Assembly (NCBI GenBank): GCA_003648455.1 | Contig: QMPG01000046.1 | Coordinates: forward strand, 1-13,796 | DNA from: Bacteroidota bacterium | GTDB lineage: Bacteria > Bacteroidota > Bacteroidia > Bacteroidales > B39-G9 | Length of the DNA stretch: 13,796 nt | Direction: 5' to 3' | Shown here: positions 2,387 to 9,838 of the stretch, piece after piece | How positions within the stretch are numbered: the first letter of the stretch is position 1 | Layout: every line of letters begins with the position of its first letter | Notes under the pieces: model-generated | Told to the model about the DNA's origin: nothing | Database searches by the model: none | What the model saw: the letters and a program-made list of their open reading frames with translations, nothing else | Translations under genes and position numbers: made by a program

Positions 2387-3394
2387 TTAATTATCGATAC
2401 CCCCTGCTTGATTACAAGTAATTGCGACTAAACGTACGATATCGTCAACAGAGCAGCCACGAGAGAGATCATTAATTGGAGCAGCCATACCTTGTAAAAC
2501 AGGACCTACAGCTTCGGCATGTGCTAAACGCTGGATAAGTTTATATGTAATATTACCTGTTTCTAAAGTTGGGAAAACCAAAACATTAGCTTTACCTGCA
2601 ATTTTACTGTCAGGTGCTTTCTTTTTGCCTATTGCAGGAATAATAGCAGCATCAGATTGTAATTCACCATCAATTTGTAATGAAGGATCCATTTCCTGAG
2701 CTAATTTAGTTGCTTCAACAACTTTATCAACCATTTCGTGTTTAGCACTTCCTTTGGTTGAGAAGCTAAGCATAGCAATACGAGGCTCGAAACCGGCAAT
2801 TGCTCTTGTTGTATGACCTGTTGTTACAGCTATTTCTGCTAATTCTTTTGCAGTAGGATTTGGATGAACAGCACAATCGGCAAATACTATTAAACCATTT
2901 TCACCGAACTCTTTATCTTTTAATATCATGATAAATGCGCCTGAAACAACGCTAACACCGGGTTTTGTTTTAACGTATTGAAAAGCAGGACGTAAAACAT
3001 CACCTGTTGCATTTTGTGCACCAGCCACTTCCCCATCAGCATCACCGTTTTTAATCATCAATGTTGATAAATACAGAGGGTCTTCGATTAATTTTGCTGC
3101 TTCATCACGAGTTAATCCTTTTTTCTTTCTAATTTCAACCATCATATCAATGTAATGGTCTTTTTTATCGTGATTTTTAGGATCAATAATTGTTGCTTCA
3201 CTAATATTTTTCAAACCATATTTTGCTGCTTCAGCTTTTATTTCATCAGGATTTCCAAGTAAAATAATTTGAGCAATTTTGTTTTCAATCAAGATATCTG
3301 CTGCCTTGATTGTTCTTTCTTCTAAGCCTTCAGGTAGAACAATACGTTTATTTAATTTTTTTGCATTCTCCTGAATTGTTTGCATTAAGTCCAT
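2387..3394 (-). CDS. pta: Phosphate acetyltransferase (short, single-domain)
   Basis: It converts acetyl-CoA and phosphate to acetyl phosphate and CoA, feeding acetate kinase. It is 335 residues long, the short single-domain class without the N-terminal DRTGG/P-loop regions of enterobacterial Pta. Conserved stretches include GDADGEVAGAQNATGDVLRP near residues 117-136, SGAFIMIL near 152, FADCAVHPNPTAKELAEIA, LSFSTKGSAKHEMVDKV, DGELQSDAAIIP, and FPTLETGNITYKLIQRL near 276-292. It is the first gene of the pta-ackA-ptb cluster. A TAnnTTTG box at 3443-3450 lies about 50 bp upstream of the ATG. The start is clear because the next upstream sequence is noncoding and AT-rich. Confidence 0.96.
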   Translation of the reverse strand: MDLMQTIQENAKKLNKRIVLPEGLEERTIKAADILIENKIAQIILLGNPDEIKAEAAKYGLKNISEATIIDPKNHDKKDHYIDMMVEIRKKKGLTRDEAAKLIEDPLYLSTLMIKNGDADGEVAGAQNATGDVLRPAFQYVKTKPGVSVVSGAFIMILKDKEFGENGLIVFADCAVHPNPTAKELAEIAVTTGHTTRAIAGFEPRIAMLSFSTKGSAKHEMVDKVVEATKLAQEMDPSLQIDGELQSDAAIIPAIGKKKAPDSKIAGKANVLVFPTLETGNITYKLIQRLAHAEAVGPVLQGMAAPINDLSRGCSVDDIVRLVAITCNQAGGIDN

Positions 3395-3661: not shown

Positions 3662-5695
<2,034 letters not shown>

Positions 5696-5708: not shown

Positions 5709-5763
5709 TTAAAAGCAATTAAAAAAAATCAATAATTTTATTTTTTTAATTATCATTAAGTTA

Positions 5764-5771
5764 TATATTTG
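5764..5771 (+). promoter_or_regulatory. Putative -7 promoter element of the riboswitch transcript
   Basis: TATATTTG matches the Bacteroidota -7 consensus TAnnTTTG. Transcription would start a few bases downstream, right at the 5' edge of the cobalamin aptamer. This position independently supports the box. Confidence 0.6.
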
Positions 5772-5776
5772 CATTG

Positions 5777-5948
5777 AAATGGTTTTTATCAATTATTCAG
5801 ATTGGTAAAACAATTGGGAAACAGGTGAAAATCCTGTACAGTACCCGCTGCTGTAAGCTCTATAAAAACTTTTAAACATCTAAGCCACTGTCGTTATTGG
5901 TGATGGGAAGGCGTTTAAAAAGTGAGTAAGTCAGAAGACCAGCCATTT
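5777..5948 (+). promoter_or_regulatory. Cobalamin (B12) riboswitch aptamer
   Basis: All the classic cobalamin-element blocks appear in order. They are GGT at about 5804-5806, GGGAA (5816-5820), CAGGTGAAAATCCTG hairpin (5822-5836), ACCCGCTGCTGTAA (5843-5856), GCCACTG (5884-5890), GATGGGAAGGCG (5902-5913) and the B12 box AAGTCAGAAGACCAGCC (5928-5944). AAATGG (5777-5782) can pair with CCATTT (5943-5948) to close the aptamer. The switch precedes the DUF4465 gene, with about 140 nt from the aptamer to its ATG. By family knowledge, adenosylcobalamin-type ligands repress the downstream gene when B12 is plentiful. Confidence 0.95.
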
Positions 5949-5965
5949 ATTTATCAATATTCAAA

Positions 5966-6030
5966 AAGCTTTCGGGAACAAAAGCAATGATTAATTTTTA
6001 ATTATTCCCTTGTTATTTCCGAGTTAGCTT
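5966..6030 (+). promoter_or_regulatory. Candidate expression-platform hairpin of the B12 riboswitch
   Basis: Directly after the aptamer, AAGCT (5966-5970) and CGGGAA (5973-5978) can pair with AGCTT (6026-6030) and TTCCG (6017-6021) in a long imperfect stem. An inner pairing AATGATTA/TAATTATT is also possible. GGGAA (5974-5978) can alternatively pair with TTCCC (6005-6009), so two mutually exclusive folds exist. No tight U-run follows, so I cannot say whether control is by termination or translation. This is based on reading only, with no energy calculation. Confidence 0.4.
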
Positions 6031-6087
6031 ACGAATATTAATTTTTTATTAATTAATTTTTGTAACGTTTAACTAAAAATCAAAATC

Positions 6088-7059
6088 ATGAAAAAAAATT
6101 ACTTTTTAATGCTATTATTAGCAGTTTTTGTATTGCCACAGTTTGCTAATTCGCAGACAGTATCAACTTTTGAAGAGCTTGAGCTTGACTCAACAGGTTA
6201 TTGGAATGGATCAGATGACGCAGGCGGTTTTACCAGTGGTAATGCATTTTTTGTCAACAACTACAACCATGATTACTTTTCATGGTCGGGCTTTGCCTAT
6301 TCTAACCAGACAGATACTGTAACTGAGGGATACTCAAATCAGTATAGTGCATATGCCGGAGAAGGTGCTGAAGCATCGAACAATTTTTGTGTTGCCTACA
6401 CTTTTGGGAATGATACTGTTTCTTTAACAAACTCGACAACAGTTGCTGGTGTTTATTTTACTAACAACACTTATGCCGGATTATCTATGAAGAATGGTGA
6501 TTCATATTCAAAAAAATTCGGGGGTGCTGACGGGAATGACCCTGACTGGTTTAAAATTTCAATTTTTGGTATTGATGATAACAACAACAATACTGATACA
6601 ATTGACTTCTATTTAGCTGATTTTCGTTTTGATGACAATAGTAAAGATTATATTGTTAAAGATTGGAAATGGGCTGATTTAAGTTCTCTTGGTGAAATTA
6701 AAAATTTGGTGTTTTTCTTGTCTTCAACAGATAACGGCGACTATGGAATGAATACTCCTTCTTATTTTTGTTTAGATAACTTAAACGGAACTCATACAGG
6801 TGTTAAAAATTTCGTTGCAAACAACAATTCTGTTAATGTTAATGTTTATCCAAACCCTTTTAGAAATTCAATTAATATTGATGGAATAAAAGATGTAAAT
6901 CAAATTTATGTTACTGATATTTCAGGTAAATTAGTTTATAATTCTAACGGCAATTTTATTAACAATCAGATTGACTTATCATCTTTAACCAAAGGGTTTT
7001 ATTTGATGAACATAAAAACACAAAACAAGATAATAAGCAAGAAAATTATTAAGCAATAA
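6088..7059 (+). CDS. Secreted DUF4465 protein with T9SS sorting domain; candidate surface cobalamin-binding protein
   Basis: The 323-residue protein has a Sec signal peptide (residues 1-22, KKN start, hydrophobic LMLLLAVFVLP, then FANSQ). Residues about 25-235 form a DUF4465 domain. Typical stretches are WSGFAYSNQTD (66-76), GYSNQYSAYAGEG (81-93), GVYFTNNTYAGLSMKNGD (121-138), DWFKISIFGID (153-163), IDFYLADFR (172-180), WKWADLSSLGEI (193-204) and PSYFCLDNL (224-232). A type A T9SS C-terminal domain (about 252-323) begins VYPNPF and ends GFYLMNIKTQ...KKIIKQ, predicting export across the outer membrane. It directly follows a cobalamin riboswitch, which implies a B12-related job. From memory, the BtuH surface B12-binding proteins of gut Bacteroides belong to this DUF family, but those are lipoproteins. 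No BtuB-type receptor or other transport gene is adjacent. The function is inferred from family and regulation. Confidence 0.85.
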   Translation: MKKNYFLMLLLAVFVLPQFANSQTVSTFEELELDSTGYWNGSDDAGGFTSGNAFFVNNYNHDYFSWSGFAYSNQTDTVTEGYSNQYSAYAGEGAEASNNFCVAYTFGNDTVSLTNSTTVAGVYFTNNTYAGLSMKNGDSYSKKFGGADGNDPDWFKISIFGIDDNNNNTDTIDFYLADFRFDDNSKDYIVKDWKWADLSSLGEIKNLVFFLSSTDNGDYGMNTPSYFCLDNLNGTHTGVKNFVANNNSVNVNVYPNPFRNSINIDGIKDVNQIYVTDISGKLVYNSNGNFINNQIDLSSLTKGFYLMNIKTQNKIISKKIIKQ

Positions 7060-7598: not shown

Positions 7599-9812
7599 CT
7601 ATTTAACAATCAACACTTTCTTAACAATTTTACTCTCGTCTGTAATTATATGAATTAGATACAATCCGGCAGGATATTCAGAAAAATTTATTTTTATCAC
7701 ATTGCTTTTATTTTTGTTTTTATCGATTTTCTTAACGAGAGTTCCAAAATTGTTAAACACATAAATTTCAGATTTTTTGTTAATATTTGAAATATCGACA
7801 AAAACATTGTCAGGTGAAGGATTTGGATAAACATTCACAACGGGATTTTCTTTTTTAATATTTTCAATTGACGTAGATACATATCCAACGACAGGCCAAA
7901 TTGCCTGATTTAAGTTTATTCCCCATGAATTATCACTGCTAAAAGGCATCCATTGCTCCTGATAATTCATTTCCCAAGCTGTATTAACAACAGCATTATA
8001 CTCGGTATTTGTAACTATAGCTAGTGTATCTCCATCTTTTTGAGGTAAAATTATTCCTGCATAAAATGGTCCTGTTATATCAACCGGAGTAGGAAACTCA
8101 ACATAAGTATTATTATTACCATTTACGTCTGTTACAATTGAAGATATTGGTTTTGTAGCTGTTGCAATTATTTGTCCTGGGCTTCCATTTTTATCATTCC
8201 AAATTGAAAATGAAATATTTGAATTAGTTCCTGTTGCAGCACCAAAATAAACATACATACCGGTTATCACATTTCGGTAACCATATGAAGTAGAATCATA
8301 ATATTCAGCCTTTGCTAAATCACCATATACATTATTACCTGATAAATAGCCTCCTTCATTAGCAATATATAAAGTAGCAGTATCGCCTTCGTTAAAATTA
8401 CTAAGAGTGATAATCTCTGTTGGGTCTTCAGAATTAGATTTATAACCGTTAAGTGATGTAACACCTGAATTATTCGGATCAAGCCAATGTTTTAATTGCT
8501 GAGAATAGTCGCTATAATCATCCCATGAATTTGATAATCTTGCAAATAAATCGTTGTAAGGATAATCACAAGTAGCGTCACCTCCGGTAAGATTCCCCAC
8601 AATATGATGATTTTCATTAAACAATGGTGCACCTGAAGAACCTCCTTCGGTTGTTCCCTTTTCCCAGTTAAGAACTTTCCAGTGAGTGTTCTCATCATAA
8701 CCTGAGTAAGTATCCATTATTGGAGGATTTTCATCAATACATATTTTTTTCACATCTCCCTGAGGGTGATGAATGCAAACAGTTTTTATTGCCGGGGAAG
8801 AAGTTATATCCCATCCTGAATAATATGGATTATAGCTTTGGGGTGGTTGTGTTGATAATTCGACCAAACTAAAATCAAGTTGACCTATTGAATCATTTTT
8901 TGTAGCCTTCAAATAAGCTCCTGATAATGATTGAATTGTAGACGAATAAGGGTTAGGGTCTATTGTATCGTTACATTCTTGATTTTCATAATTGAAATAA
9001 AAAATTGATTTTTCGGCTAAACTTTCTGAACCAATACAATGATTTGCTGTTAAAAAATAAGGTTTCTCATCATTATTTGTATTATTAATCAATGCACCTG
9101 TGCATAACTCAGAGTTGTTAATAATAATTCGGCAAACCGAATATTTTTCATTTTGCCATTCTTGCCCCTCGTTACAATTAATATCAATATTACAATCGCC
9201 GGAAAGACCGTATTGTCCATCTTTTGTTTTTAAATAATTAAACACTCCCTTATAATCATGAGCTACCTGATTTATGTTTAATAATGGATTAAATGCTATA
9301 TTTTTAGGTTCGTTATATTCGATAATAATTGCATCGCCTTTAACAGGAGAAATTGATAAAACCTTACTTTTTTTATTATTTTTATTAGTAAATGCGCCTA
9401 ATATTTGTGATTTATCAATGTTATAAATAAAAACTTTTGAATTAGGAGGTAAATAATATCTATTAAAAGTAATTCCAATTGAATAAGCTCCGTTTGATTT
9501 AATACCCAATCGCCATATTTTATTACCATTTGACAATGTGTCCCAAACACCGGAATTCTCAGGATTAAAATTAACATTTATATTTTTTGCAAATCGTAAA
9601 GGTTTGCCTTTAAGTTTATTGTTAATTGTATCTTGTAGTAATAATTTATTAACATCAATTGTGTTCATCAGTTCGAAAGGAATTGATTTTTTTAACTTGA
9701 CAATATTACTTAAAGGTTCTCCTCCTGAGCTTATTTGAGCACAGAGAAAACTTGAAGTGAAAAATATTGAGATTACAATAAATATTAACTTATTAATTAC
9801 ATTTATTTTCAT
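7599..9812 (-). CDS. Secreted lysyl-endopeptidase-like S1 serine protease with T9SS sorting domain
   Basis: I start at the ATG at 9812 (737 residues); an in-frame TTG six bases upstream is less likely. Residues 1-26 are a signal peptide ending LCAQ. A beta-rich propeptide-like region (about 70-190) precedes the protease domain (about 200-455). The chymotrypsin-fold catalytic residues are visible: His258 in LTANHC, Asp313 in QLDFSLVEL and Ser393 in GGSSGAPLF. Cysteine-bearing segments resemble bacterial lysyl endopeptidase (Achromobacter protease I). The Asp at 421, 28 residues after the serine in YNDLFARL, is the likely counterpart of its Lys-specificity aspartate; this alignment is from memory. 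Residues about 465-640 form an unassigned beta-sandwich-like domain. A T9SS type A tail (about 658-737) contains VYPNPSPD and ends GLYLIHIITDESKIVKKVLIVK-like. It is likely a secreted or surface protease for protein degradation. Confidence 0.9.
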   Translation of the reverse strand: MKINVINKLIFIVISIFFTSSFLCAQISSGGEPLSNIVKLKKSIPFELMNTIDVNKLLLQDTINNKLKGKPLRFAKNINVNFNPENSGVWDTLSNGNKIWRLGIKSNGAYSIGITFNRYYLPPNSKVFIYNIDKSQILGAFTNKNNKKSKVLSISPVKGDAIIIEYNEPKNIAFNPLLNINQVAHDYKGVFNYLKTKDGQYGLSGDCNIDINCNEGQEWQNEKYSVCRIIINNSELCTGALINNTNNDEKPYFLTANHCIGSESLAEKSIFYFNYENQECNDTIDPNPYSSTIQSLSGAYLKATKNDSIGQLDFSLVELSTQPPQSYNPYYSGWDITSSPAIKTVCIHHPQGDVKKICIDENPPIMDTYSGYDENTHWKVLNWEKGTTEGGSSGAPLFNENHHIVGNLTGGDATCDYPYNDLFARLSNSWDDYSDYSQQLKHWLDPNNSGVTSLNGYKSNSEDPTEIITLSNFNEGDTATLYIANEGGYLSGNNVYGDLAKAEYYDSTSYGYRNVITGMYVYFGAATGTNSNISFSIWNDKNGSPGQIIATATKPISSIVTDVNGNNNTYVEFPTPVDITGPFYAGIILPQKDGDTLAIVTNTEYNAVVNTAWEMNYQEQWMPFSSDNSWGINLNQAIWPVVGYVSTSIENIKKENPVVNVYPNPSPDNVFVDISNINKKSEIYVFNNFGTLVKKIDKNKNKSNVIKINFSEYPAGLYLIHIITDESKIVKKVLIVK

Positions 9813-9838
9813 AACCAATGTTTTAAACTATTATCATA

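Follow-up and report, generated by a model that had tools for sequence, protein, structure and literature searches.

The window analysed here, 13,796 nucleotides of contig QMPG01000046.1 of a Bacteroidota bacterium, contains a cobalamin (vitamin B12) riboswitch followed by an open reading frame (ORF; 6088-7059, plus strand) for a protein of 323 amino acids (aa), which combines a DUF4465 domain with a C-terminal sorting domain of the type IX secretion system (T9SS). The locus is real and is best read as a T9SS-exported B12 scavenger of the BtuJ type under the control of the riboswitch. We consider it likely that the gene forms a single-gene scavenging unit, whose product hands its load to BtuB-BtuG. 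The arrangement of a T9SS-tailed, riboswitch-linked DUF4465 gene recurs in many related genomes.

The riboswitch, the DUF4465 domain with its predicted fold and contact residues, and the sorting domain all belong to the window itself (Table 1). An earlier note on this DNA had claimed a complete cobalamin aptamer, and the covariance model RF00174 matched it over its full length, well above the gathering score. The note had also assigned the riboswitch its own promoter, and this claim stood in part: the candidate -7 element TATATTTG fits TAnnTTTG, which we take to be the Bacteroidota -7 consensus, and is conserved in two related loci, L001 and L002, but its upstream partner was not found: a TTTG is lacking where the -33 element would be expected, and the window gives zero matches to the two-part pattern TTTG-N17-20-TAnnTTTG. 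The leader that separates aptamer and gene (5955-6090) has a predicted fold of -23.1 kcal/mol, more stable than expected from 200 shuffles (z -3.06); its sequence is well conserved in L001 and L002, which preserve the aptamer, the leader and the start codon jointly.

The encoded protein lacks a lipoprotein signal, its first cysteine being residue 101. PF14717 (DUF4465) matched aa 62-232 with 194.7 bits (cut-off 25), PF18962 (Por_Secre_tail) matched aa 253-321 with 50.1 bits (cut-off 27), and TIGR04183 matched the C-terminus with 49.4 bits (cut-off 23), which bears out the proposal of a secreted DUF4465 protein that has a T9SS tail where others have a lipid anchor. The predicted fold is the augmented jelly-roll of B12 complexes, and the best structural matches of the model are BtuJ-type B12 binders. 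In a sequence alignment with BtuJ1, on which residue correspondences were counted by hand, three tyrosines coincide with BtuJ1 contact residues as given in the available part of PMC12751083. Since eight divergent members of the DUF4465 family bind B12 (PMC13398666), cobamide binding may be expected here as well, and together with the retained tyrosines and the BtuJ-type predicted fold this makes B12 binding by the window protein very probable.

The earlier note had described the domain as BtuH-related, and here it needs correction. BtuH2 (PDB 7biz) was not among the sequence matches of the window protein at E up to 1, and membership in BtuH was therefore rejected; BtuJ1, BtuJ2 and D5EK51 were all among the matches, and the BtuJ family is the name given to IPR027828/DUF4465 in the literature (PMC12751083, same part; PMC13398666). 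Structural comparison, suggested as a check against BtuH, pointed to BtuJ-type binders as the best matches, and no BtuH is among the 50 structural matches listed for the predicted fold, although its absence from that list proves nothing. The window gene does not lie inside a btuB-containing operon, as a gene for BtuJ proper would.

The first survey, a single scan of species genomes, yielded 50 loci, three of which (L048-L050) match by tail only. It contains 18 DUF4465 proteins with a T9SS tail, the window protein included; L003 and the first ORF of L038 start at an edge and could not be assessed for a riboswitch, and all 16 assessable genes lie behind a same-strand cobalamin riboswitch. BtuB and/or BtuG, recognised with our own profiles, occur in the same gene run in 12 of these 16, a companion T9SS protein was the only one recognised in L019, and neither BtuB, BtuG nor companion stands beside the DUF4465 gene in the window, L001 and L002. 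Among the genes of this survey that lack a recognised T9SS tail are those for lipoproteins, for Desulfobacterales proteins and for Prevotella-type proteins, which hold one to four DUF4465 domains. No RF00174 match was found in the DNA examined for L003, L020 and L030, where the gene lies <110 nt from the edge, nor in that for L033, L042, L043, L045 and L047, and L041 has a match to the AdoCbl-type RF01482 instead.

A less biased sample comprised 296 genomes from the phylum of one relative, G001. DUF4465 was above the cut-off in eight of these genomes, and without G001, the centre of the sample, there are eight proteins in seven genomes. Seven of the eight proteins, three T9SS-tailed (L072, L075, L078) and four lipoprotein-like, lie behind a same-strand cobalamin riboswitch; for the eighth (G101, 26.3 bits, in a frame of 1866 aa) no cobalamin riboswitch was found in the 15 kb examined. 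L078 resembles the window in having no recognised B12 gene in its gene run, and its neighbour is cinA.

Within the order of G001, DUF4465 is present in 169 of 393 genomes. Among the score-sorted matches listed, 120 proteins were numbered by hand, with previously used genomes and some second copies excluded, and every second one was taken to give 60 regions, in 59 of which 63 DUF4465 proteins were found (L165 was lost by the ORF caller). They were divided by our own tail profile and a lipobox pattern into 41 T9SS-tailed proteins, 10 lipoproteins and 12 others, at least one of which (L129) looks like a lipoprotein; because the sample leans to high-scoring relatives, 41/63 is not a phylum-wide share. 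The riboswitch search of the 60 genomes used stricter filters, at which weak matches are lost, and was positive in 55. Under a strict rule, which asks for a riboswitch at most 7 kb away on the same strand without an opposite ORF in the interval, 35 of the 41 T9SS-tailed genes pass, 20 of them without an intervening gene. L118 and L128 have a riboswitch 92 and 244 nt upstream and fail by one opposite ORF; L110, L112 and L147 start <410 nt from a contig end and were set aside (in G615 and G366, the genomes of two of them, no cobalamin riboswitch was found genome-wide); and L140 fails, its riboswitch being 5.9 kb away with an opposite ORF between. Altogether, 37 of the 38 assessable T9SS-tailed genes follow a cobalamin riboswitch, which, with the 16/16 of the first survey, answers in the affirmative the question whether other such genes carry B12 riboswitches. 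The placement is also seen for 8/10 lipoproteins and 8/12 others; the genomes of the two lipoprotein misses (G660, G597) gave no cobalamin riboswitch match.

The absence of a BtuB, BtuF or BtuG neighbour, as claimed by the earlier note, was borne out by a scan of ten window proteins. That the gene stands alone is correct for the window, but not in the sense of "without BtuB", which was rejected because relatives G002 and G003 encode BtuB-BtuG elsewhere. In both genomes another cobalamin riboswitch drives a T9SS-tailed protein of ~350 aa, BtuB and BtuG; the G002 proteins match the solved BtuB 8bmx_C (E 6e-123) and BtuG 8bmx_D (E 2.3e-104; PF16819). Because of this second riboswitch-driven operon, the window gene seems to belong, unlinked, to a B12 regulon. 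The operon and the T9SS genes were found in close relatives only: SprA is present in 20 of 24 relatives, including G001-G003, the four without it (G010, G016, G020, G024) carry an untailed DUF4465, and the T9SS sortase scores above the cut-off in G002 and G003 but falls short of it in G001. Methylmalonyl-CoA mutase was found in G002 and G003, CbiC in none of the 24 relatives, and the host is probably a B12 auxotroph.

Bacteria compete for B12, which is a scarce resource. Given the known behaviour of btu riboswitches as OFF switches, low intracellular cobalamin would permit expression; the protein would be made with an ordinary Sec signal, and the T9SS translocon would recognise its C-terminal domain and carry it across the outer membrane. 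Outside the cell, the DUF4465 jelly-roll would bind a corrinoid via its HI and DE loops and pass the load to a BtuB-BtuG complex whose genes would lie at another place in the genome, behind a further cobalamin riboswitch.

Several points weigh against this reading. Repression by B12, binding, the extracellular place and the hand-over to BtuG/BtuB are steps that we infer, and no switching mechanism emerged from the predicted leader fold. BtuB, T9SS and B12-dependent enzymes are known from the genomes of relatives rather than from the window's own, and one of these, the 1.6-Mb bin G001, shows no DUF5074 BtuG and no methylmalonyl-CoA mutase. In the protein, Trp78 of BtuJ1, which touches the lower ligand, is replaced by Tyr63, so that the preference among cobamides may be a different one. 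Of the 64 DUF4465 domains in the order sample, 48 show the HI-loop pattern [NG]TPx[YF] (44 with Tyr) and 16 lack it; in the first set, 61 of 70 domains or pieces show it and nine do not. Not every member of the family need therefore bind alike. It is conceivable that the product is a surface protein under B12 regulation that has lost B12 binding and serves in adhesion or carbohydrate binding, as the jelly-roll resembles carbohydrate-binding modules, but we consider this highly improbable. Still less probable is an incidental link, with the riboswitch acting on some other gene or surviving as a relic: in the window and two relatives no recognised B12-uptake gene does stand beside the locus, but the joint conservation of aptamer, leader and start codon in L001 and L002 and the 37/38 of the order sample speak against it.

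Whether the scavenger would be anchored or released is a further question. Cargo of T9SS may be either, according to the available part of PMC10202324, and the lipid-anchored BtuJ of B. theta is described in that of PMC12751083 as already acting away from the cell, on vesicles. A shed, diffusible, cobalophore-like carrier that is retaken by BtuG/BtuB is thus a possible but rather doubtful variant; it is a sub-case of the T9SS-exported scavenger, and the confidences given to the two overlap. No feature examined separates anchored from released T9SS cargo; the sortase, which is described as attaching cargo to A-LPS in P. gingivalis, is present in G002 and G003, and neighbouring cells could take up a carrier that is shed freely.

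The divergent upstream neighbour of the window gene, ligA (NAD-dependent DNA ligase), lies outside the system and marks its site. It also adjoins the DUF4465 locus in L013 and L017, where a stand-alone lipoprotein version lies behind a riboswitch, which suggests that the genes of the window, L001 and L002 and those of L013 and L017 occupy the same site with the anchor swapped. Orthology of the two types is left unsettled by the backbone of the domain tree, and the one-clade test neither rejects nor supports it (AU p 0.15 without L042, 0.17 with L042). On the same tree the T9SS label needs at least seven changes, three of them forced by well-supported branches, so that swaps between tails and anchors appear to have happened repeatedly.

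Elsewhere in the window, the sole nearby co-directional gene is a downstream one for a 97-aa FeS_assembly_P protein. On the minus strand, 7599-9818 encodes a trypsin-like protease with a T9SS tail, and L001 and L002 have a T9SS-tailed protein of similar size at the same place; 129-1046 is a PTA_PTB-family gene, and 1135-2343 and 2387-3394 presumably encode acetate kinase and phosphate acetyltransferase. In L001, a RhuM-family gene (PF13310; 886-1902) stands between ligA and the riboswitch, a position at which it is absent in the window and L002.

Table 1. Features of the DUF4465 locus and its marker gene in the window.
Feature	Position	Strand	Evidence
ligA, NAD-dependent DNA ligase	3662..5668	-	PF01653, E 6.7e-96
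Cobalamin riboswitch aptamer	5763..5961	+	RF00174, 108 bits (gathering score 31.5), E 9.2e-27, model positions 1-189/189
TATATTTG, candidate -7 promoter element	5764..5771	+	Read in sequence; identical in L001 and L002
Leader / expression platform with predicted hairpins	5962..6087	+	126 nt between aptamer and start codon
N-terminal signal peptide, aa 1-22 (predicted)	6088..6153	+	By eye: KK, hydrophobic stretch, ANS/Q; no lipobox cysteine
DUF4465 jelly-roll domain, aa 24-235, predicted B12-binding	6157..6792	+	
Tyr82, aligned to BtuJ1 Tyr97	6331..6333	+	BtuJ1 contact, PMC12751083 (available part)
Tyr129, aligned to BtuJ1 Tyr146 (DE helix)	6472..6474	+	BtuJ1 contact, PMC12751083 (available part)
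Tyr226 in MNTPSY, aligned to BtuJ1 Tyr245 (HI loop)	6763..6765	+	Same motif in BtuJ1; PMC12751083 (available part)
T9SS type A C-terminal sorting domain, aa 250-323	6835..7056	+	

Other architectures were observed among the homologues. Two DUF4465 domains with a T9SS tail occur in 114 of 120 homologues among those listed, and such proteins rank high because each of the two domains contributes to the score. In Prevotellaceae and kin (L022-L027, L029-L035), one to four tandem domains occur in proteins of up to 1643 aa, mostly behind cobalamin riboswitches (none found for L030 and L033), with C-termini that the T9SS profile does not recognise. The DUF4465 protein of Rhodoferax is a possible PEP-CTERM protein. 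In G003, the DUF4465 gene L003:55-2214 has an extra ~280 aa and a different T9SS tail, and a small ORF just downstream, with an unrelated start, ends in a piece resembling the old tail.

A second T9SS-tailed family (PAAGxPGSTAI...FAVFENGF...GGFDLDAVGVI) was found behind cobalamin riboswitches (L062:6878-7930, L063:5428-6462, L069 and L070). Pfam recognises little in it beyond the tail, 8 of the 63 proteins sampled are fusions of it with DUF4465 (L110, L114, L118, L134, L138, L149, L152, L154), and it is a candidate BtuH-like B12 binder. In G002, a third cobalamin riboswitch (L061:4283-9532) is followed by a DUF6580 protein (PF20221), a candidate inner-membrane transporter of cobamide or cobalt judging by its place, and then by a large protein whose cadherin/Ig-like matches are weak.

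The T9SS-tailed DUF4465 class, common among the relatives, would sit outside the cell, which would make T9SS part of vitamin uptake in these Bacteroidota. More speculatively, many Bacteroidota beyond the studied gut Bacteroides may possess a T9SS-exported B12 kit (DUF4465, the BtuH-like family and their fusions), loaded outside the cell, at least partly shed or vesicle-borne and feeding BtuG-BtuB: a riboswitch-run protein "vitaminophore" system, separate from the lipid-anchored complexes. A natural comparison is offered by one binding domain with two anchors at possibly the same chromosomal site beside ligA.

Binding of B12 by DUF4465, its fold and its regulation are of known kinds. According to a previous survey, >70% of DUF4465 proteins are predicted lipoproteins, the remainder have periplasmic targeting signals, and their genes are linked to B12 transport loci (PMC13398666); the T9SS-tailed, riboswitch-tied class comes in addition to these. 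The main text of that paper has no use of "T9SS", "type IX" or "sorting". Its tested binder F2I9N3 (Fluviicola) was not located among the homologues listed; should it carry a T9SS tail, binding of B12 by a protein of this class would already be on record. No paper on a T9SS-exported B12 binder, or combining DUF4465 and T9SS, was found in the open-licence PMC literature (preprints were outside its scope), nor did the searches bring up a description of the export class, its extent or its fusions.

Among known systems, NucA, a T9SS type A cargo (T9SS complex 8glk), is a nuclease, whereas the cargo domain of the window protein would be a vitamin binder. BtuH (BtuH2) likewise binds B12 and is an accessory protein of btu loci in Bacteroidota, as stated in the available part of PMC8941943, but belongs to a different family. 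D5EK51 of Coraliomargarita and the other B12-binding DUF4465 proteins (PMC13398666; PDB 9hmu) share the family of the window protein, as do BtuJ1 and BtuJ2 of Bacteroides thetaiotaomicron (PDB 9fct, 9qpm, 9i2l). The latter two, in the part of PMC12751083 available, are lipoproteins encoded in btu operons, which are loaded on vesicles and enable them to carry cobalamin, whereas the window protein bears a T9SS sorting domain, lacks a lipobox and is encoded by a stand-alone gene.
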